From assembly GCF_030547005.1 (NCBI RefSeq), contig NZ_JAUOPN010000012.1, positions 62,001 through 126,000 on the forward strand: a DNA stretch of 64,000 bases. The letters run 5' to 3'. This document shows, in pieces, positions 7,084 through 50,502 of the stretch. The notes below the pieces were generated by a model. The model saw nothing but the letters and a program-made list of their open reading frames with translations. It did not search any database and was not told the origin of the DNA. Within the stretch, counting starts at the first letter, position 1. Each line of letters opens with the position of its first letter. Position numbers and translations under genes: made by a program. This DNA is from Maribacter sp. 1_MG-2023 (lineage in GTDB: Bacteria; Bacteroidota; Bacteroidia; Flavobacteriales; Flavobacteriaceae).

Positions 7084-7532
7084 AATCACTAATTAAAACT
7101 TTTAGAAAATTGATGATATGGGGTACAATTACCAGTACTTTATTATTTATAGGGATTACATTGATTCAAATATATGGTCGGTTTTTTATGGTCAAGGCAC
7201 CTTCTTGGTCAGAAGAAGCAGCAAGGGTAGCTTTTATTTATGCGATTGCTTTTGCGTCCGGTTTAGCGGTTAGGGGTTCTTATTACGTCGATTTTGGTTT
7301 CTTGGCTCAAAAACTAAAACCTCGTTTACAAAAACGGCTTACTTATTTTGTTTGGGGTGTAACTGTTATATTCATTATTCTTTTTACCTATTACGCTATA
7401 GATTTTTTAATGTTGGGATTAATAGAAAAATCGCCAAGTTTAAAATTTAAAATGGCCATATCATTTTCAGGAATAGCGATCATGGGACTTTCCATTTTAG
7501 TACATCTATTAGATCAAAAACCAAAAAATTAA
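7080..7532 (+). CDS. dctQ: TRAP transporter small permease (DctQ family)
   Basis: 150 residues with four hydrophobic helices, the normal DctQ topology. The conserved SWSEEAARVAFIYA segment is at about residues 41-54. The start TTG overlaps the dctP stop (TTGA), a tight translational coupling; an in-frame ATG 11 codons later is a second possibility. DctQ links the receptor to the large membrane subunit. Confidence 0.9.
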   Translation: MKSLIKTFRKLMIWGTITSTLLFIGITLIQIYGRFFMVKAPSWSEEAARVAFIYAIAFASGLAVRGSYYVDFGFLAQKLKPRLQKRLTYFVWGVTVIFIILFTYYAIDFLMLGLIEKSPSLKFKMAISFSGIAIMGLSILVHLLDQKPKN

Positions 7533-7542
7533 TATCGAACTT

Positions 7543-8820
7543 ATGATTACAATTCTTTTTGTGGTTTTTGTTGTATGCCTCCTATTACGATTTCCAATAG
7601 CATTTTCACTTGGTATATCATGTATGGTATTTTTGATATTTAATGGGACAGATTTGATTGTAATGCCCATGAAAATGTATTCTGGTATAGATGTTTTTGT
7701 TTTGTTAAGTATACCAGGGTTTATTATAGCAGGTAATTTAATGAACCAAGGTGGGTTAACCGCAAAAATCATTAGATTCTGTAATCATTTAATAGGTCAT
7801 GTTCCTGGTGGGCTTGCATTGGCAAATATTGGGTCTTCTATGCTATTTGCGGGTATTTCTGGCACAGCTATTTCAGATACTGCAAGTATAGGTTCGGTAA
7901 TGATACCCGCTATGAAAAAAGAGGGTTATGATGCAGACTTTGCTTGCGCGGTTACCGCATCTTCCTCTACCGTTGGTCCAATTATACCACCAAGTGTACC
8001 AATGATTATAGCTGCAACCTTAAGTGGTCTGTCCGTTGGTAAATTGTTTTTAGCCGGTGCATTACCTGGTTTATTATTGGGTGTGGCAATGTTAATTCTT
8101 ACGTATTACATTGCTAAAAAAAGAAATTATCCCAAGCACGAGCGTAGTTCTTTGAAAGAAATTTTTAGAGGATTCATAGATACCTTTTGGTCATTATTAA
8201 TGACTTTTATTATTCTTTTCGGAATAATAGGAGGTGTATTTACGCCGACTGAAGCCTCAATTATAGCAGTACTTTATGCCTTTGTAGTGGGCGCATTTGT
8301 GTACAAGAAATTGAATTTTAAAAGAACTATGGCAATTATTATTGATGCCATGAAAACGTCTGCGAGTTTAATGGTCCTTATCGGTTTTGCTAACTTGTTT
8401 GGTTATATATTGGTTTCAGAAAAAGTACCTCATGAAATATCTAATATGATTTTGGGTTTTTCGGATAATAAATATGTAGTTCTTCTACTTATAAATATTC
8501 TCTTGATTCTTGTAGGTACCTTTATGGAGACGATAGCGGCATTACTTATTCTATTCCCAATTTTATTAAAAATTGCTATAAGTGTTGATGTAGATCCAAT
8601 TCACTTTGCAATTATTGCACTATTGAATTTAATTATTGGTTTAACGACACCTCCTCTAGGGGTTTGTTTATTTGTAGCATCTGGTATAGGGAAAGTACCT
8701 TTAGAGAAAGTAAGCATCGCCAATTTACCTTATTTGGGTATTAGTTTCTTAGTACTTATTTTAGTTACTTTATTTCCACAAATAACCTTGTTTTTACCTG
8801 AACTTTTGATGGCTGATTAG
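7543..8820 (+). CDS. dctM: TRAP transporter large permease (DctM family)
   Basis: 425 residues, about 12 membrane helices, normal for the sodium-coupled DctM subunit that carries the transport path. Recognisable features are the Gly-rich FAGISGTAISDTASIG segment near residues 104-119 and the PPSVPMII segment near 149-156. It follows dctQ by 10 bases, completing a P-Q-M operon with three separate genes. No catabolic enzyme follows, so the neighbourhood gives little on the substrate; the nearby hxlAB could be functionally linked but nothing in the sequence shows it. Confidence 0.92.
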   Translation: MITILFVVFVVCLLLRFPIAFSLGISCMVFLIFNGTDLIVMPMKMYSGIDVFVLLSIPGFIIAGNLMNQGGLTAKIIRFCNHLIGHVPGGLALANIGSSMLFAGISGTAISDTASIGSVMIPAMKKEGYDADFACAVTASSSTVGPIIPPSVPMIIAATLSGLSVGKLFLAGALPGLLLGVAMLILTYYIAKKRNYPKHERSSLKEIFRGFIDTFWSLLMTFIILFGIIGGVFTPTEASIIAVLYAFVVGAFVYKKLNFKRTMAIIIDAMKTSASLMVLIGFANLFGYILVSEKVPHEISNMILGFSDNKYVVLLLINILLILVGTFMETIAALLILFPILLKIAISVDVDPIHFAIIALLNLIIGLTTPPLGVCLFVASGIGKVPLEKVSIANLPYLGISFLVLILVTLFPQITLFLPELLMAD

Positions 8821-41983: not shown

Positions 41984-42658
41984 TCAACGCTCTTTTAATA
42001 GGGCTTTTATATCGGTAATCAATTGCGCTATAGAAGCTCTATTCAATCCGTTATAAATACCGCGTATGTGCTTATTTTTATCAATGAGCAAAAAGTTTTC
42101 TGTGTGTAGAAAATCATTGATATCCTTAGGTATGCCTAAATCATTTTCTACAAAATATTCGTTTCTTCCTAAATTATAAATTTCGTTCTTATCACCAGTA
42201 ACTAAGTGCCATTTAGAATCTATTACTCCGTTTTTTTCGGCATATGTTTTAAGTACGGATACAGAATCTATTGAAGGAGTTACTGAATGTGAAAGAATAG
42301 CTACTTCATCATTTTCTAAAAAAGCCTCTTGTACCTTTGTCATATTATTCGTCATCTTAAGACAAATTCCTGGGCAGGTAGTAAAAAAGAAATCAGTAAT
42401 ATAAATTTGATTTTCGAAAGACTTCTGGGTCAATGTATCTCCTAACTGATCCACCAATTTAAAATCAGGAATTTTGTGAAATTGTTTTTCTTCTTCAGTA
42501 TTCGGAGTTATCCAATGTGGGGTAAATGATTCATCATTATAATAAGGCAAGTGCTCTACCCTACTGGTCTCTTTAACCTGTATGTTCTCTTTTTTTACTG
42601 TTTGTTTACAAGCAGCAAAAAGAAGTATAACAACTATAGAAAGTATTGTCTTGTTCAT
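41984..42658 (-). CDS. SCO1/SenC-family copper-binding lipoprotein
   Basis: 224 residues. The lipoprotein signal ends FAACK (Cys17), without the acidic surface-export tag, so it should face the periplasm. Thioredoxin-like fold with the copper ligands Cys95 and Cys99 in TTCPGIC and His185 in HTENF. SCO proteins deliver copper to cytochrome oxidase or other copper proteins, or act as redox sensors. The ATG overlaps the preceding gene's stop by 4 bases. No cytochrome oxidase gene is near; its partners here are YHYH and CotH proteins. Confidence 0.9.
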   Translation of the reverse strand: MNKTILSIVVILLFAACKQTVKKENIQVKETSRVEHLPYYNDESFTPHWITPNTEEEKQFHKIPDFKLVDQLGDTLTQKSFENQIYITDFFFTTCPGICLKMTNNMTKVQEAFLENDEVAILSHSVTPSIDSVSVLKTYAEKNGVIDSKWHLVTGDKNEIYNLGRNEYFVENDLGIPKDINDFLHTENFLLIDKNKHIRGIYNGLNRASIAQLITDIKALLKER

Positions 42659-43275
42659 AATAATTCGTTTTCTGATCTAATTACAACTTCATCTTCTAAT
42701 TGATAGCAAGAATTTGCTCTACGTAATCCAAAAATACGTCCGTTTTTAGCTTCATAGTTCACATACAAAGTTCCGTTTTTTAACCACGCTTTTTGTAATC
42801 CCTCTTCTCTACCGTTAACCAATTGCCGTTCTTTTGCCAATTGACCATCTGCGTACCATTTCTTTTCTACTCCGTTCATGTTTCCATTAGCATAGTTAGC
42901 TTCTTGAGCTAATTGCCCATTCTCCCACCAACTTTTATACGAACCTTCTAGACGATTATTTTTATAATGAAATTCAACTCGTAATACACCGGTATCTGAC
43001 CATCTTTGTACAACGCCTTCTCTTTTACCTTTTACAAAACCCACCTTTTCAGCTAAAGTTCCATTTTCATGTAAGGCTATTGAATAACCATCATAAGGTG
43101 AGTTTTTGTAATACCAAGTTCCTTCCAATTGATTTAGCTTTAATTCTTCTTTAAATTTAGTTTCTTGCTTAATCACTATTGGTTCTTCAACCAAAGCTTT
43201 ATGCTCAGTTGTATTTTTACAACCAACTTGAAAAATTAGTATAAAACAAATAATATGGAAGTGAACTATTCTCAT
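42655..43275 (-). CDS. YwqK-like repeat lipoprotein (MORN-related)
   Basis: 206 residues. Lipoprotein signal ending QVGCK (Cys19). From about residue 50 on there are five to six units of about 22 residues of the type NGxLxxxxxYxNGxxxGxxKxW, as in the YwqK/MORN_2 family. Databases often label YwqK an antitoxin, but no toxin gene is here and this one is exported. Probably a surface or periplasmic scaffold. Its stop overlaps the SCO1 start, and it lies 2 bases after the YHYH gene, so the genes are cotranscribed. Confidence 0.82.
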   Translation of the reverse strand: MRIVHFHIICFILIFQVGCKNTTEHKALVEEPIVIKQETKFKEELKLNQLEGTWYYKNSPYDGYSIALHENGTLAEKVGFVKGKREGVVQRWSDTGVLRVEFHYKNNRLEGSYKSWWENGQLAQEANYANGNMNGVEKKWYADGQLAKERQLVNGREEGLQKAWLKNGTLYVNYEAKNGRIFGLRRANSCYQLEDEVVIRSENELL

Positions 43276-43277
43276 TC

Positions 43278-44066
43278 TTAATATCCTTGGTAAGGACCTG
43301 CAAATGCAAGGTATGATCCTGTTGTTGAATAAATTTCATTTATAATATGGTAATGATATTCTTCTTCACCATCAGTATACTGAGTAGTAGAAGTGTGCCC
43401 CCCAGAAGCATCTAGATCTGAAGGATAATCACCTGTAGAATTACATTTACGACCATAAAGAAAAACACCGTCTAATAAAACACCTACTAATTTTTCATCA
43501 TCATCTGAAAACGCAACGGGCTCTAAATGATAATGATATACCCCAGGACCGATATGAGCTCCCGTCCAATCTAAACTAGCAGCTGCTTGATCTAGTGCAC
43601 CACCACCTTCTTGGTCATTAAATAATGAAGAACCACTTACAGCGATACCAATAGTACCTAATTCTGTTTCAATTGTACTGCCGGTTAAATTAGGTGTTGC
43701 ATCTACTCTAATAGTTGTGGCATTATTATTACTTGACATAATACTTGGGGTTTTGTTAACGTCAGGTTCTTCTCTATACAAAGCATTACCTTCACCCCAA
43801 TAAATTGTTTCATGATTAGGTAACCCTGTAGTTTCTATAACAACTTCAGAGCCATCTAAATAAACAGTTACAGCATCTGAATTAAATGCAGCATAGGCAG
43901 CATGTAATTCTGTTACGACTTCTTCAGAATCATCGTCATCATTATTAGCAATGTCTTCTGTAATGTCATCATCAACACTGTCGCTACTACATGCAATTAA
44001 GGTAATGAACGATAATGCCAAAACAAATGACACTTGGGAAATTCTTTTTAGACTATTTTTTTTCAT
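43278..44066 (-). CDS. YHYH-domain lipoprotein, copy 1
   Basis: 262 residues. Lipoprotein signal ending LIACSSDS (Cys26), followed by a long Asp/Glu/Asn stretch, the surface export signal type of Bacteroidota. The domain has VYHYHLEP near 169-176 and EEYHYHIINE near 233-242, plus a GVLLDGVFLYG segment between them, the layout of YHYH proteins. The regularly placed His pairs suggest metal binding (inference). Two YHYH genes flank the gene at 44184. Confidence 0.85.
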   Translation of the reverse strand: MKKNSLKRISQVSFVLALSFITLIACSSDSVDDDITEDIANNDDDDSEEVVTELHAAYAAFNSDAVTVYLDGSEVVIETTGLPNHETIYWGEGNALYREEPDVNKTPSIMSSNNNATTIRVDATPNLTGSTIETELGTIGIAVSGSSLFNDQEGGGALDQAAASLDWTGAHIGPGVYHYHLEPVAFSDDDEKLVGVLLDGVFLYGRKCNSTGDYPSDLDASGGHTSTTQYTDGEEEYHYHIINEIYSTTGSYLAFAGPYQGY

Positions 44067-44183
44067 AATATTTAATTTGAGCTTGATTTCAGCGATTCAA
44101 CACTACAATACTACTAACTAAGTGCATACCAGATTTTAGAAATCAGTGAATTACACGTTCTATTAAGTGAATCTGGTTTTAGA

Positions 44184-44822
44184 TTAAGATGAAACATTTT
44201 CACTCACAGATTTTTCTTTCAACAGAAAAATATTTTTTATCAATAGACCTAAACATGTGATACCTATTAAACCCAAGATGATTAACGAAGGAGATACTCC
44301 TGCATTTTGTTGACTCGGTTCAACGAACTTATTTCCATTAACTTTTAAATTTATAGTATGGTCATTGTCATTATTTAAAATGAATTGATCTTTACTGAAG
44401 CCATCTTTAAAAATGAACAAAGCACTTTGACTTCTACCAATATCTTTAAAAGTTTCATTTTTTACGCTTAAGGATTGTAAATCTGAAGGAATACCAAATA
44501 CTTCAAACACTACTTTTGTCTCATGACCTAGTTTAACCATTGCTTGACCTAATGTAATTTTTGAACCATCATTGAAACTAATATCCAAATTGTTTTTAAT
44601 GTGCTCCAATACCATTTGTTGAAACTCCTCGGGGGTTTTATACGGAGTTTCTGCAAAATGTGTTCGTACTTCTTGCTGAAAAGCGGTTAAAGAAGAACTG
44701 ATCTGTAGCACCCAGGTGTTGTTTTCCTTCTCAACTAGCATAGTTGTAGAGGCATCTGGGTTGTGGGCATAACCTAGCAATGAAAATAGCCCGGTTATAT
44801 AAATTAGGATATACTTTTTCAT
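44184..44822 (-). CDS. Exported, C-terminally membrane-anchored protein, possibly HupE/UreJ N-domain-like
   Basis: 212 residues. Signal peptide about 1-19, first mature residues HNPD (an N-terminal His as in metal-handling proteins). A periplasmic domain of about 150 residues follows, then one membrane helix (SLIILGLIGITCLGLLI) near 178-194 and a short cytoplasmic tail. The N-terminal layout loosely recalls the extracellular domain of HupE/UreJ-type membrane proteins or DUF6702; I cannot assign it firmly. Sandwiched between two YHYH lipoprotein genes. Confidence 0.7.
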   Translation of the reverse strand: MKKYILIYITGLFSLLGYAHNPDASTTMLVEKENNTWVLQISSSLTAFQQEVRTHFAETPYKTPEEFQQMVLEHIKNNLDISFNDGSKITLGQAMVKLGHETKVVFEVFGIPSDLQSLSVKNETFKDIGRSQSALFIFKDGFSKDQFILNNDNDHTINLKVNGNKFVEPSQQNAGVSPSLIILGLIGITCLGLLIKNIFLLKEKSVSENVSS

Positions 44823-44832
44823 AATAATATTT

Positions 44833-45894
44833 TTAGTTTACGTAAGCACCTTTTAATCCATCAATAAAGTTGTTGTTACCTGCAGCATCTACATGGTAAT
44901 GGTAACCTCTAGTATCATCAGAATGTCCTCGTAGTTCATCCAAATCAGTAGCATCGACACCGCTGCTATCAACCAATTCATAAATTCCAAATCCATCCAA
45001 AGCATAACCAATTAAGGCAGCATGCCCGTCATCTTGCGCTACTTTAGTACTAAAGCCCGTTGCTGCGTGGTAATGATAACCTTGGTGAACGTTAATATGT
45101 CCGCCAGCATCATCAAAGGGAGCTAAAGTATAGGCACCAAGAATATTATCAACTGGCGCCGGAGCAGAAAATTCGATACCATTTAAAGCAACACCACGTG
45201 TTGATGGAGCTGTTGTTGTTCCTGGATCTCCAGGGCCACCACCTGTGGTAGTAAATAGTACAGGAGTATCTTGTGAAACCGGAGTAATAGGAATAGTCCA
45301 TGTTTGCGTTAAATCAGTGATATAGGAAGGTAGACATTCAACACAGAAGTTCTCATATTCTTCTCCTACATCAGGGTTGGCGGCATTTTCACAATCTTCT
45401 TGGGTATCGGTAATATAAATATCTCCGTTGGCATCGTACATTAACCAATTTGGATCATTATAGAATGTTGCCATATTTTCAACGAAAGCACCATCTACAT
45501 CGTATACTTCTCCATCTTCTAGCCAAATACCCCCTGTTGAAGCGTCATCTTCAATATTACCAGGGCACCATGGTCCCATTTCATGATCTCCAGGTAGACT
45601 GGTCGTAACTATTTGATAACAATCTGTTTCAGTACCGTCAGATAAAGTACAGGGCACAGTTGTAATAGTTACAGAGCCATCGGTAATATAAAAATAAGAA
45701 GCATCAACACTTACTGTTTTTATATTTTCATCAGTGGTGTCATCGTCAGTGCCATCGGTAACTGTATCGTCTTCATCTTCAATTACCGAATCATCTGTAG
45801 ACGAAGAGTCATCGTCACTACAACTTACAAAGGTTATAGCGGTAAAGGCAAAAAGAAAGTAAGCCAAAATCAAGTATTTATTTTTATGGATCAT
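44833..45894 (-). CDS. YHYH-domain lipoprotein, copy 2
   Basis: 353 residues. The lipoprotein signal ends TFVSCSDDD (Cys25): Ser-Asp-Asp-Asp after the Cys is the classic flavobacterial surface export tag, followed by a 35-residue acidic linker. In the domain, GYHYHAATG near 270 and RGYHYHVDAAG near 334 carry the His pairs, with the ALDGFGIYE segment between. Four further Cys (for example CTLSDGTETDC, CENAA) may form disulphides. Longer than copy 1 by an N-terminal extension. Ten bases before the anchored-protein gene. Confidence 0.87.
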   Translation of the reverse strand: MIHKNKYLILAYFLFAFTAITFVSCSDDDSSSTDDSVIEDEDDTVTDGTDDDTTDENIKTVSVDASYFYITDGSVTITTVPCTLSDGTETDCYQIVTTSLPGDHEMGPWCPGNIEDDASTGGIWLEDGEVYDVDGAFVENMATFYNDPNWLMYDANGDIYITDTQEDCENAANPDVGEEYENFCVECLPSYITDLTQTWTIPITPVSQDTPVLFTTTGGGPGDPGTTTAPSTRGVALNGIEFSAPAPVDNILGAYTLAPFDDAGGHINVHQGYHYHAATGFSTKVAQDDGHAALIGYALDGFGIYELVDSSGVDATDLDELRGHSDDTRGYHYHVDAAGNNNFIDGLKGAYVN

Positions 45895-45930
45895 AATTTT
45901 ATGTATTAAATTGTTATTATTTTAAAGTGA

Positions 45931-46683
45931 TTAGGGTCTGTTCAACTCTTGATTCAACTTTGTGGCAATTGTTTCTGTTTTCTGTCTTAAATTCTTTGCA
46001 ATAGTCAATTGTCCTTTAGTTTGCAATAGTCTATCTATGATACTGTTTTGATACTCTCTATTTACTAGTAATTCGGTATAGTTAGATTGATTGCCATATA
46101 CTTTCATTCTATTGTAGTTATAGCTATTTTGAGGCAGAATTTCAATTAATGAAATATGCTTTTCTATAATGGGTTTTAACCTATTCGATATAATACTTTC
46201 AATTTTATCTTGTTGATTATCAAAACTATCCAATTCATTAGGGTAAGCAGCAATCAATTGTTTAAGAGAATCACTATCAATAAATTCAAATTTGTTAGTA
46301 ACATTTATCGAGTTAATAGCTTCATCGCGCACTATAGTTCTCTCATAGTTTAAATTCACTATTAAGGCTTTAGCCTCTTGTGATAATTCATTGGTAGGAA
46401 TACCCAAATAATTAATAGTATTCTGAAGCTTTTGTATACTATTTGTATATTTTACAATGGCACTATCTAGAACAATTAAATTAGTATCCAGTTCTTGACT
46501 TAAACTTTTATATATTTTTAGTTCAACGATTCTATTCTTCTTGATTTCATTAATGCTGTTTATTTTCCATGCAATTAAAAGCCCAACAACAATTAACAAC
46601 ACTTCACCAAGGGCATAAATAAAATAACTTTTGAATTTTTCTAAGTCTATTAATTTTCGTCTAACTTTTCTGAATAATACCAT
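45931..46683 (-). CDS. DUF6090-family membrane protein
   Basis: 250 residues. One membrane helix near residues 22-42 (ALGEVLLIVVGLLIAWKIN), then a charged, coiled-coil-prone helical body to the C-terminus: the standard DUF6090 layout. Function unknown. It is 36 bases upstream of YHYH copy 2 and separated from the CotH gene by a hairpin. Confidence 0.85.
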   Translation of the reverse strand: MVLFRKVRRKLIDLEKFKSYFIYALGEVLLIVVGLLIAWKINSINEIKKNRIVELKIYKSLSQELDTNLIVLDSAIVKYTNSIQKLQNTINYLGIPTNELSQEAKALIVNLNYERTIVRDEAINSINVTNKFEFIDSDSLKQLIAAYPNELDSFDNQQDKIESIISNRLKPIIEKHISLIEILPQNSYNYNRMKVYGNQSNYTELLVNREYQNSIIDRLLQTKGQLTIAKNLRQKTETIATKLNQELNRP

Positions 46684-46724
46684 TGAAAGTTATTATATAA
46701 TCTGTCGTAAGACTGTTTGAAAAT

Positions 46725-46752
46725 AAAGCTCCATGATTTCTCATGAAGCTTT
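46725..46752 (-). terminator. Terminator or attenuator between CotH and the DUF6090 gene
   Basis: AAAGCT-C-CATGA / TCATG-A-AGCTTT, 11 paired bases with one mismatch, loop TTTC, T-rich afterwards on the minus strand. It may split the cluster into two transcripts. Confidence 0.6.
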
Positions 46753-46774
46753 GAGCTAACTTCAACAACAATTA

Positions 46775-48238
46775 TTATCTATTTAAGTAACTATTTACGG
46801 CCGCAGTTCTACTTGTGGCATGTGCATTTAGTTCATTTACTGCATTTTGAAAATCTGTACTAGAATTTAAAAATGTATACCCATCAATTTCAGAAGTTGC
46901 ATAAGGCTCTACTAGTGCAGAATAAGTAGCATACAATGCTTGTACCGTTGCTTCGTTAAACGGACCTTCAATAACTTCTTGAACGTAGGCATCATACTTT
47001 GCTTGGTAAACATCATCAGTATACAAGTATGATATTAATGGCCATTGCGATGCTGTAATATTTGAGAAATCTAACTCTGCAGAACCTTGTTGTTTCCCAG
47101 CTTGTAAAGCTTCATTATTGTCCCATGGTATCCACGTTAACTTACTGTTATCTGGATTATTATATAGATAGTAGTTGTGAGACATTCTACCATAAGTATC
47201 CCAATTTTGTATAACGGTATTGGTAGCCAAGTATTTCAAGAACACATCCGTATCAAGCGTAGCATCTAAATTTGTTCTCCATGCTGCAGCATCTGTTGTT
47301 CTTGACGCATCATGTAGAATATTTAAAAGACTTTCTACATCAGTAAAATCAGCATCATCTTCATTTGTTTTTTTAACATACTCATCTTCATCATAAGTAC
47401 CTGCGGCAAAAGTAGCGGCATCACCATCTGGCTTATACAAATTTCCGTCATCATCAGAAAACTGCTCATCTATTACGGTATCATCAACTTCTTCAACAAG
47501 GGTGTACAATCCGAAATAAATAGGACCATCTCCATGATCAACATAAACCGTGTAAAATGCAGTGTTTGAAACGGCTAACCCTGCACTGCGAAACACATCT
47601 GCAGCCACTTTTTCGCGAAGCATTGATTTATCGTCAAAGTTATTTTTAAGACTTAACTTCTTAAATCCATAAAAGCGTTGATTGTTTATTTGAGGATAAT
47701 CATCTTCATACTCGTCAAAATCTAGTTTAAAGGAAAGTTTTAAGTTCCCAGCTTGCCAAGTAGATTGTAAGCTAGAGTTTCCTTTAAATCGAACACCAAC
47801 TCTATACCATTCTATACCTTCATAGAATACTTCTGCAGGAACAAATATAGGATCCTCATCAGTTGATGTAGTGCCCACTGGTCCGCCTCCTTGGTTAGAT
47901 CCGCCAAAAGAACCATAAAGAGATGTCATGTTATCTAACATACTATCCCAACGCTCTTCGGTTATAACAATATCAAGGCGTTTTACAGCATTATCTTCAA
48001 ATACCTCTTCAAAATCTGGGTCGGCGTCTTTACTGTGTGTTGCCGTGGTCCAATCTGTAGCCTCAAAATCGGTATCGTCAACAGTTGTACTAACTTCTTC
48101 CTCTTCTACAATTTCTTCATCATCCTCGTCAGTAGTTGTTATCGTGTCATCATCGCTACAAGCAATAAAAACAGAAATAAATAAGAAAAACAACATCTTT
48201 TCAATTGGAAAAACAGACTTGATATCTTTATAACTCAT
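46775..48238 (-). CDS. CotH-type atypical protein kinase, surface lipoprotein
   Basis: 487 residues. The lipoprotein signal ends FIACSDDD (Cys27), again with the acidic surface tag and a linker of Asp, Glu and Thr to about residue 65. The CotH domain follows: RLDIVITEERWDSM near 88, an RFKGNSSLQS segment near 150, a FYGFKKLSLKNNFDD segment near 190, and the kinase core QNWDTYGRMSHNYYLYNN...KLTWIPWDNNEA (landmarks NWDTYG and IPWDNN) near 345-380. CotH of Bacillus is a protein kinase on spore-coat proteins (known). Its substrate here is unknown; the EF-hand protein encoded just upstream could be a calcium-dependent partner. Confidence 0.88.
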   Translation of the reverse strand: MSYKDIKSVFPIEKMLFFLFISVFIACSDDDTITTTDEDDEEIVEEEEVSTTVDDTDFEATDWTTATHSKDADPDFEEVFEDNAVKRLDIVITEERWDSMLDNMTSLYGSFGGSNQGGGPVGTTSTDEDPIFVPAEVFYEGIEWYRVGVRFKGNSSLQSTWQAGNLKLSFKLDFDEYEDDYPQINNQRFYGFKKLSLKNNFDDKSMLREKVAADVFRSAGLAVSNTAFYTVYVDHGDGPIYFGLYTLVEEVDDTVIDEQFSDDDGNLYKPDGDAATFAAGTYDEDEYVKKTNEDDADFTDVESLLNILHDASRTTDAAAWRTNLDATLDTDVFLKYLATNTVIQNWDTYGRMSHNYYLYNNPDNSKLTWIPWDNNEALQAGKQQGSAELDFSNITASQWPLISYLYTDDVYQAKYDAYVQEVIEGPFNEATVQALYATYSALVEPYATSEIDGYTFLNSSTDFQNAVNELNAHATSRTAAVNSYLNR

Positions 48239-48265
48239 GTGTAAAATTTTAAGGATTAATGTAAA

Positions 48266-48547
48266 TTAGTCTCTAGATCTTCTTTTTGGTTTAGGAGCGT
48301 TATCTAATTCTTCCTTAGAAAGAAAACCATCTTCATTCGCATCAATCTTATCAAAATCATCTTTTAAAGGTCCTTTTACTTCTTCTTTAGAAAGTTGACC
48401 GTCTTCATCTTTATCCATTTGCTTTAAAAGCTCAGTAGTCGTTGGTGGTTCTTTTCTATCTCCTTTAGACTGTGCATTTGCGGTAACGGTTCCAAAAGCA
48501 ACCAACATGGCAAATAATAATCCTGTTTTTAATGTAATACGTTTCAT
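48266..48547 (-). CDS. Small exported EF-hand protein
   Basis: 93 residues with a signal peptide (1-26, cleavage ANA-QS). Two canonical EF-hand loops: residues 45-56 (DKDEDGQLSKEE) and 69-80 (DANEDGFLSKEE), both with acidic or polar ligands at 1, 3, 5, 9 and Glu at 12. A calcium sensor or buffer in the periplasm or outside. First gene of the CotH unit, 27 bases upstream of CotH, and divergent from the LytS-like kinase gene. Confidence 0.9.
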   Translation of the reverse strand: MKRITLKTGLLFAMLVAFGTVTANAQSKGDRKEPPTTTELLKQMDKDEDGQLSKEEVKGPLKDDFDKIDANEDGFLSKEELDNAPKPKRRSRD

Positions 48548-48737
48548 ATGTTTTAATTTTAATAATTAATATTCGAGAACAAAGATGTAAGAATCTTTAA
48601 TGTAATATGAGCGCATTAAGTGTTTACCGTTTACTTTTAAGTGAATGCTATGTTATAAACAGCGAACTCTTTAGAATCACCTATTTATACCCTTGTTTAC
48701 GGGGTTTGTTTGAATTTTTATTCCTTTTATTTGCAAC

Positions 48738-49835
48738 ATGAACAGACATAAGAATTTTATATTTCACGTAGCGCTTTGGTTACTGATTTGGTCAACTGCT
48801 TGGATTTTTAGTGGCAGTGATATTCAATTTGCAGCGGAAAATGGAATGGCGCTCGTGTTTCAGATTTTAGTAATTGCCATATTAATCTATTATACGGTTC
48901 CACAATTATTACTTAAGAAAAAGTATATAGCATTTACTGTAGTCTCTATAATTACGGTTTTTGTAGTCACCCTAATATTAACTAATGTTGTTCCAGATCA
49001 GATACTAGGACCAGAAAATACCATAGGTCAGGCACCTGGACCTAGATTAGGACCGAGACCCGAAGGGCTTGGACCAGGGTCAGGACCTAGATTTGAGAAT
49101 GGACCACCATTAGAAAGTAACCGAAGACCTCCATCACGTTTTTTTATTAATTTATTATTGATTGCAATTGCCTACGTGATTGCTACGCTTGTGGAGATAT
49201 TTCTATTAGCTCAGCGCAAAGAAGAGGAAATCGTAATCAATAAAAATGAAGCTTTACAGACAGAATTAAAGCTGTTGAAGTCACAGATCAATCCGCATTT
49301 TTTATTTAATGCCTTAAACAACATATATGCATTATCTGCAATAGATTCTGGAAGAACACAAAAGAGTATTAGTTATTTGTCTGATATGCTTAGGTATGTT
49401 TTGTATGAGTGTGAGCAAGAAATTGTCCCGCTTTATAAAGAGATAGATTATATTGAAAATTATATAAAATTGTTTTGTCTTAAGAGTAGTAAAACATATC
49501 CTATAACTACTACATATTCTATAGAAAATCAGAATATTCAAGTTGTGCCCATGTTATTGATTCCTTTTTTGGAAAATGCCTTAAAGCATAGTAATATTGA
49601 AAAAGTAACAGGCACCTTTATTAATCTGAAAATTAATGCTACCGAAAATAGTCTTGATTTTGAATTAGAGAATAGTAAACCTGAATTTAAGATAGTAAAG
49701 GATGATGTTGGCGGTATTGGGATAGATAATGTAAAGAAACGTTTGACAATTCTATATCCAAACCGTCATGAATTGGTCATAAATGAAACCACAGAGGCTT
49801 TTAAAGTGAATTTAAAACTGCAGTTGAATGAATAG
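48738..49835 (+). CDS. LytS/YehU-type membrane sensor histidine kinase
   Basis: 365 residues. Three N-terminal helices (about 8-95), then a Gly-Pro-Arg-rich insert of about 35 residues near 96-132, a fourth helix near 136-158, then the His_kinase domain with His187 in NPHFLFNALNNI and the ATP-binding domain (VPMLLIPFLENALKHS near 270-285). The insert lies between helices and is probably periplasmic. It pairs with the LytTR regulator 8 bases overlapping downstream and is divergent from the EF-hand/CotH unit, which it probably senses for (inference). Confidence 0.9.
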   Translation: MNRHKNFIFHVALWLLIWSTAWIFSGSDIQFAAENGMALVFQILVIAILIYYTVPQLLLKKKYIAFTVVSIITVFVVTLILTNVVPDQILGPENTIGQAPGPRLGPRPEGLGPGSGPRFENGPPLESNRRPPSRFFINLLLIAIAYVIATLVEIFLLAQRKEEEIVINKNEALQTELKLLKSQINPHFLFNALNNIYALSAIDSGRTQKSISYLSDMLRYVLYECEQEIVPLYKEIDYIENYIKLFCLKSSKTYPITTTYSIENQNIQVVPMLLIPFLENALKHSNIEKVTGTFINLKINATENSLDFELENSKPEFKIVKDDVGGIGIDNVKKRLTILYPNRHELVINETTEAFKVNLKLQLNE

Positions 49836-50502
49836 TATAAATTGTATAGTCGTAGATGACGAAGAATTGGCACGAGCCTTACTAATAACTTATATAGAAA
49901 AGTTAGATTTTTTGAATTTGGTAGGTGAGGCCGAAAATCCGTTAGAGGCTTTACAATTAATGAAAGAACATGATGTAGATGTTTTGTTCTTGGATATTCA
50001 AATGCCCGAGATAAAGGGTACGGATTTTGCTAAAATGGTAGATTCTAACACTAAGATAATTTTCACCACAGCGTACTCTCAATACGCTTTAGAAGGATAT
50101 GAATTAAATGCAGTAGATTATCTATTAAAACCTATTACGTTTGAACGCTTTGTTACTGCCGTAAATAAGGTGAAAACCAATAAAACAGTAGAAAAGTCTG
50201 AATCATTTACTATTAAATCTGGTTATGATTTGCACAAAGTGAAATTTGAAGATATTCAGTATATCGTAAGCGATAGCGAGTATGTTACATTTCATATGGC
50301 TGATAAGAAAATTATAAGCAATCAACGTTTAAAAGCCTTAGAACAAGAGTTACCAAGTTCTATGTTCATGAGAGTGCATAGATCATATATCATTAATAAG
50401 AACAGTGTAACAGGCTTAAAGGGTAGAGATTTACTGCTTTCAGATGTTATTATACCCGTAAGTGACTCATACTATGATGTAGTAAAAGATGAACTGTTTT
50501 AA
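49828..50502 (+). CDS. LytTR-family response regulator
   Basis: 224 residues. Receiver with Asp10-Asp11, phospho-acceptor Asp56 in LFLDIQMP and Lys in LLKPIT, then a LytTR DNA-binding domain (about 130-224, with FMRVHRSYIINKNSV). LytTR proteins bind direct repeats upstream of targets. The start overlaps the kinase stop by 8 bases. The nearest candidate target is the divergent EF-hand/CotH promoter. Confidence 0.92.
   Translation: MNSINCIVVDDEELARALLITYIEKLDFLNLVGEAENPLEALQLMKEHDVDVLFLDIQMPEIKGTDFAKMVDSNTKIIFTTAYSQYALEGYELNAVDYLLKPITFERFVTAVNKVKTNKTVEKSESFTIKSGYDLHKVKFEDIQYIVSDSEYVTFHMADKKIISNQRLKALEQELPSSMFMRVHRSYIINKNSVTGLKGRDLLLSDVIIPVSDSYYDVVKDELF

Follow-up and report, generated by a model that had tools for sequence, protein, structure and literature searches.

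The DNA analyzed here, referred to as the window, is a stretch of 64,000 nucleotides from Maribacter sp. 1_MG-2023 (NZ_JAUOPN010000012.1, positions 62,001-126,000, forward strand). At window positions 41984..50502, eight minus-strand genes, among them two YHYH genes, a CotH gene, an EF-hand gene and a SCO1 gene, face a LytS/LytTR two-component pair, which raises the question of whether they constitute one system and what that system would do. A sequence-only reading of the same DNA had proposed a calcium- and copper-linked surface machine with a two-component system of its own; the idea of a linked system has held up, and the mechanism appears to be partly right. Taken as a whole, the evidence leads us to favor, if modestly, the explanation that the cluster represents a conserved envelope module under common regulation, here in the version controlled by LytTR, and that the YHYH proteins of this module are served with metal. 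That the exported set, kept under shared control, is one functional system is in our judgment very probable, since this is the simplest reading of control that is shared across two regulator types. All ten open reading frames (ORFs) were confirmed at the coordinates and on the strands where they had been placed, with the eight minus-strand genes facing the pair as described. The features of the cluster, in window coordinates, are as follows.

41984..42658, minus strand: SCO1/SenC lipoprotein with CxxxC and distal His kept (Pfam 2.9e-23; alignment to solved Sco1)
42655..43275, minus strand: MORN-repeat (YwqK-like) lipoprotein (Pfam MORN_2 2.7e-16)
43278..44066, minus strand: YHYH2 lipoprotein, core gene (Pfam 6.9e-8)
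44144..44171, minus strand: second LytTR-type direct repeat, 77 bp upstream of the YHYH2 start
44184..44822, minus strand: DUF6702-like exported protein with a C-terminal hydrophobic anchor (sub-threshold Pfam match, 16.8 bits)
44833..45894, minus strand: YHYH1 lipoprotein (Pfam 7.9e-11)
45931..46683, minus strand: DUF6090-like membrane-anchored protein (sub-threshold Pfam match, 17.3 of 23.5 bits)
46775..48238, minus strand: CotH lipoprotein of the atypical kinase family, catalytic positions kept (Pfam 8.5e-71)
48266..48547, minus strand: exported EF-hand protein with two canonical loops (best Pfam match 8.9e-11)
48639..48666, minus strand: first LytTR-type direct repeat, 91 bp upstream of the EF-hand start
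48738..49835, plus strand: LytS-type histidine kinase, divergent (Pfam His_kinase 1.7e-23)
49828..50502, plus strand: LytTR response regulator (Pfam Response_reg 3.7e-23, LytTR 9.4e-20)

Most of the earlier gene labels stand, the matches to SCO1-SenC, MORN_2, YHYH (twice), CotH, EF-hand, His_kinase, Response_reg and LytTR all being above the Pfam cut-off. The DUF6090 label is weaker than had been implied, with a score below the gathering threshold, and Pfam gives no DUF6090 match for the homologue in locus L034. What had been called an anchored protein is a sub-threshold DUF6702 match. Export signals, claimed for all of the minus-strand products but DUF6090, were judged by eye and with a lipobox pattern and are predictions: SCO1, YHYH2, YHYH1 and CotH have lipoboxes, MORN has a near-lipobox, the EF-hand and DUF6702-like proteins have predicted signal peptides that lack a lipobox, and the DUF6090-like protein has a single N-terminal hydrophobic stretch. 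The MORN gene overlaps the start of SCO1, the last gene of the operon, by 4 bp.

Gene content was compared in two sets of relatives that overlap in species. We mapped 55 stretches in the family, including two from the genome that holds the window, and we used the YHYH2 alignment to collect the best 80 of at least 533 relatives, each as a locus of up to 21 kb and all from genera that we take to be Flavobacteriaceae. Counting a gene as present anywhere in a locus, SCO1 is found in 80 of the 80 loci, YHYH2 in 78, MORN in 71 and EF-hand in 66; DUF6090-like genes occur in 31, CotH in 30, YHYH1 in 17, DUF6702-like genes in 15 and sulfatase in 9, and genes tentatively labelled VTC-like and DUF4956-like by their general appearance occur in 7 each. 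Where YHYH2 was called (78 loci), MORN and SCO1 lie just downstream of it in 69, and SCO1 occurs without a called MORN in 9. Beyond the family, a class sample of 295 genomes, of which the YHYH2 alignment matches 55 at 1e-10, yielded 17 fetched regions. Neighbors were compared in the 15 with a strong match (E 3e-55 or better), which come from 14 genomes in 11 other families; L236 has only a distant YHYH2 match and no partner gene, and L237 belongs to the window's own family. In these other families SCO1 adjoins YHYH2 in 13 of the 15 regions, and in the remaining two the contig runs out after MORN. Ten regions have calls for both MORN and SCO1, and one has CotH and EF-hand.

These two sets of counts define a core of YHYH2, MORN and SCO1, with CotH and EF-hand as narrower partners. 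The sequence-only reading would have fallen had these families failed to co-occur outside close relatives; this was checked, and for the core the opposite is the case, because it recurs in other families of the class. A part of the proposal that needs correction is the place given to CotH (30/80) and EF-hand (66/80), which, together with the DUF6090-like and YHYH1/DUF6702-like genes, are accessories found mostly within Flavobacteriaceae. We found no paper that pairs CotH with YHYH, SCO1 with YHYH, or YHYH with Flavobacteri, most subscription journals and preprints lying outside this search.

Beside the operon, the 80 loci have a divergent LytS/LytTR pair in 30 cases, a set of extracytoplasmic function (ECF) sigma, anti-sigma-like and Spy-like genes in 34, neither in 14 and both in none. 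Two of the loci lack a called focal gene, and under a looser rule the figures become 31 LytTR, 35 ECF and 14 neither. LytTR regulators act at direct-repeat sites with a period of about 21 bp upstream of their target genes, and the pair in the window, a LytS-type kinase and a receiver-LytTR regulator by Pfam, is accompanied by just such repeats. When the intergenic regions between the kinase and EF-hand genes were aligned, using 22 of 25 sequences and excluding three that differ in length, half-sites TTCRCTK were seen to repeat at 21 bp. In the window a third, degenerate half-site follows the first repeat, 21 bp closer to the EF-hand gene; the textbook LytTR half-site is not matched in the window. 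The box TTCRCTK-N14-TTCRCTK has exactly two copies in the 4.27-Mb genome, both in the cluster, before EF-hand and before YHYH2. With one mismatch allowed, the whole genome gives 43 matches versus 32 for the reversed control. The period and the position of both exact copies mark them as predicted LytTR targets. To this extent the cluster does have its own two-component system, as had been claimed, although LytS/LytTR is one of two alternative regulators.

At up to one mismatch, the 31 LytTR-type loci (615 kb) hold 45 intergenic boxes in 25 loci, 44 of them toward the operon, and the 35 ECF-type loci (717 kb) hold none between genes and two inside genes. LytTR-type boxes are also present at the YHYH operons of L103, L106 and L123, which are among the 14 loci lacking either regulator beside the operon; this suggests control in trans. 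Across 32 kinases, LytS shows a Gly/Pro-rich loop that varies, and its sensor part contains no metal ligands that are conserved.

A reciprocal pattern was obtained for the ECF-type loci, in which a gapped-word search found CAAGT-N15-CATCTAAA, typically about 27-29 nt upstream of where translation of EF-hand and YHYH2 starts. If one mismatch is tolerated, this element is intergenic in 35/35 ECF-type loci, 5/14 loci with neither regulator and 0/31 LytTR-type loci. Fisher p values for the two cis-element contrasts (7e-13 and 2e-19) are descriptive only, because the loci are not independent of one another and also served as the source of the motifs. Across a family sample of 199 genomes, of which 57 have YHYH (PF14240) and 70 have CotH (68 of these above the cut-off), the exact form CAAGTTT-N13-CATCTAAA gives 67 matches in 27 genomes, versus 2 for the reversed control, and by coordinates 53 of the 67 have a YHYH match no more than 10 kb away. 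Fourteen lie elsewhere, half of them inside called ORFs; the seven intergenic ones precede sulfatase, MauG-type di-haem peroxidase, PAP2-like, CotH and CHU_C genes and, twice, ECF genes, the latter two in one genome without YHYH. The Spy-like protein is found in 26 of the 199 genomes, 25 of them YHYH-positive as compared with 57/199 overall (hypergeometric 5e-15). It has no match in the window's genome, and among nine genomes with LytS/LytTR beside the module only G076 gives a match, a weak one. The relatives' Spy-like protein falls short of the Metal_resist (PF13801) gathering score, the best of four tested reaching 26.7 of 29.2 bits (7e-6).

CnrYXH is a system of the ECF sigma/anti-sigma/periplasmic metal-sensor type, and the arrangement in 34 of the 80 loci, where genes for an ECF sigma factor, a small anti-sigma-like protein and an exported Spy/CnrX-like protein adjoin the module, resembles it; the targets here, unlike those of that system, are YHYH-MORN-SCO1, EF-hand and CotH and not an efflux pump. 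Outside the family, ECF and Spy-like genes occur in 6 of the 15 regions and an adjoining LytS-LytTR pair in one (L231). In many relatives (L042, L044, L049, L053 and others) the ECF-controlled module is found at a single conserved site, flanked on one side by a divergent RsmB-like gene and on the other by a YCF48-like gene, after which comes another ECF sigma locus; the accessory genes vary within this site. In one genome that lacks a YHYH match, the ECF trio and its promoter persist together with EF-hand and YCF48-like genes (L189:7128-9079), apparently a reduced module.

The cis-elements are mutually exclusive between locus types, and overlapping gene sets are reached by both. A quick tree of YHYH2 plus SCO1 (79 rows, 14 of them without a regulator label) needs 8 changes of regulator versus 22 in shuffles, and at least 3 of the 8 are forced by well-supported branches. 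It seems that this set of exported proteins, shared among marine Flavobacteriia, can be turned on as a whole by one or the other of two unrelated regulators. The same elements also reach genes that stand apart. The exact LytTR box in the longer form TTCRCTKAA-N12-TTCRCTK has 22 matches in 19 of the 199 genomes (reversed control 10), of which 9, including the window's own, are at YHYH, EF-hand or CotH genes. Among stand-alone CotH genes, those of G014 and G001 have an exact box and that of G129 a box with one mismatch, in each case 70-71 bp before the start, and that of G002 has none; the box upstream of three of these four ties CotH to YHYH in trans. Further boxes lie 188 bp before a Cthe_2159 lipoprotein whose N-terminus resembles proteins inside the clusters (L169) and 72 bp before a PAP2-like lipoprotein (L170), and of the remaining 11 exact matches four were inspected, three being inside genes and one 47 bp before another LytS gene; a LytS/LytTR pair with the box at this distance (L171:6247-6274) is in a genome without a YHYH match. 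The PAP2-like gene has a LytTR box in G026 and an ECF promoter in G148, the proteins being 66% identical. Gene content, its conservation, the cis-elements and their common occurrence at YHYH and CotH genes are direct observations.

What the module does is a less certain matter, and for a metal role, which is plausible, we cite the intact ligands of SCO1, the invariant His and Asp residues of YHYH and the Ala-His of the DUF6702-like protein. SCO1 delivers copper to cuproenzymes. The window's SCO1, besides an above-cut-off Pfam match, has a CPGIC motif and a His that align with solved Sco1 proteins; its constant partners here, in contrast to that role, are YHYH and MORN lipoproteins, and no oxidase genes were among the neighbors given to Pfam, a search not aimed at oxidases. 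Both YHYH proteins exceed the PF14240 cut-off of 25 bits, scoring 33.1 and 42.7, with matches that cover roughly the initial 60% of the profile, and a 61-row alignment of YHYH2 has H85, D166, H171, H178, H180, D199 and D219 invariant; among the matches listed, its closest relatives are from Maribacter. In a report on jumbo phages (PMC7824862), conserved His and Asp residues of YHYH are likewise proposed as a metal site, and the domain, in phage tails, is predicted to be a metal-dependent hydrolase; here, by contrast, it is found in cellular lipoproteins with SCO1 and MORN partners. YHYH is also treated in PMC11992049. The window's own genome has a second YHYH1/DUF6702-like pair (L069, C23:1-2000) without an exact LytTR box, at a contig edge that may cut its promoter, and a further full-length-type YHYH gene (L070, C12 ~317278-317916) in whose 20-kb surroundings no other gene of the cluster was recognized, save for one weak response-regulator match. 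In L053 (9685-10815) a full-length YHYH is fused to C-terminal EF-hands.

YHYH1 frequently adjoins a DUF6702-like gene in relatives. We use only the label "DUF6702-like", since the window protein scores 16.8 of the 24 bits required; of the six homologues tested, two exceed that threshold (29.2 bits). By eye, Ala-His stands at the predicted signal cleavage site in 26/26 homologues, the window's included, and most have a second His; these 26 rows were picked by profile, with three that had been picked through a string containing Ala-His left out, and at least two pairs among them seem to be from the same species. Cleavage at the predicted site would leave an N-terminal His, as in the DUF6702 "metal sequesterases" (Franco Cairo et al. 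2025, PMC12537917), which the window protein resembles in these two features. A purified DUF6702 is reported there to bind Ni, Co and Cu, and the neighbors named for it belong to the M1 peptidases and HAD proteins, with YHYH not among them; the window protein also differs in being below the Pfam cut-off. The metal link that had been proposed is strengthened, as a hypothesis, by the Ala-His protein and by this published binding; we put the chance that the YHYH enzymes receive their metal from SCO1 and the DUF6702-like protein at slightly under even.

A rather unlikely but possible alternative is that the module is co-regulated and delivers no metal, the YHYH proteins being surface hydrolases and SCO1 a thioredoxin-like thiol-disulfide enzyme in the remodeling or scavenging of phosphate- or sulfate-bearing surface polymers. 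It draws on CotH, PAP2, sulfatase, arylsulfotransferase, VTC and Cthe_2159. By Pfam and sites, sulfatase, PAP2-like, Cthe_2159 and arylsulfotransferase genes do occur among the accessory or co-regulated genes, as do those tentatively labelled VTC and DUF4956 by appearance, and the hydrolase prediction in PMC7824862 would suit it. However, these are minority genes (sulfatase 9/80, VTC-like 7/80) as compared with SCO1 (80/80), and capture of a metal is what the Ala-His in the DUF6702-like protein would suit.

The CotH protein aligns with the solved Bacillus CotH 5jd9 (E 9.5e-12) and, with two copies shorter than 350 aa left out, D347, N355, W372 and D373 are kept in 31/31 aligned proteins; family and residues predict an atypical kinase. 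It shares these with the CotH spore-coat kinases of Bacillus, but here it is a flavobacterial lipoprotein under the same box as the YHYH genes. The EF-hand protein has two canonical loops, DKDEDGQLSKEE and DANEDGFLSKEE. Among 31 genomes with both genes, 13 of 44 CotH places are within 10 kb of a YHYH gene versus 0.38 expected, a proximity beyond chance. One module holds a degraded CotH with three in-frame stops (L081 ~7505-7855; G168:C1:3111504-3111854), and elsewhere in the same genome a 767-aa CotH has an ECF promoter (L188). An improbable second alternative makes CotH the center: in a Fam20C-like, calcium-dependent secreted phosphorylation, it would phosphorylate EF-hand and acidic surface lipoproteins, with SCO1 incidental. 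Its kept catalytic residues, the sequence similarity of CotH to Fam20C noted in PMC12189002 and the regulatory box common to CotH, YHYH and EF-hand genes speak for this, but CotH is not seen in 50 of the 80 loci while YHYH-SCO1 stays, a count that covers the loci and not the rest of those genomes. That CotH acts on the YHYH enzymes themselves is doubtful.

A chance neighborhood of unrelated surface genes near a two-component pair, which differing gene content between loci might suggest, is very improbable, being already contradicted by the proximity count, the specificity of a box whose exact copies are both in the cluster, the trans-linked CotH and the mutual exclusion of the cis-elements.

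For the metal-served envelope module that we favor, we infer the following course of events. LytS would sense an envelope signal, and the LytTR regulator would bind the TTCRCTK direct repeats, with their 21-bp period, at the two promoters and turn on the YHYH1, YHYH2 and CotH lipoproteins, the EF-hand and DUF6702-like proteins and SCO1, a set presumably located at the surface. The DUF6702-like protein would probably capture a transition metal through its N-terminal His; the YHYH proteins would be metal-dependent enzymes that receive their metal from, or are kept active by, SCO1, perhaps with the DUF6702-like protein; and CotH may phosphorylate secreted partners.

The broadest form of this proposal, which we advance only tentatively and think unlikely as it stands, is that a single pathway joins a Fam20C-like secreted kinase (CotH) and calcium-binding proteins with YHYH metalloenzymes serviced by SCO1, in an undescribed class of bacterial surface system whose regulon has been kept while its master regulator was swapped repeatedly between ECF sigma and LytTR, the target promoters being rewritten each time. 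The cluster does look like one regulon under two unrelated regulators with mutually exclusive cis-elements. YHYH, a family of unknown function, thereby gains constant partners and two readable promoter signatures, which make its regulon, its metal and its enzyme activity directly testable in marine Flavobacteriia.

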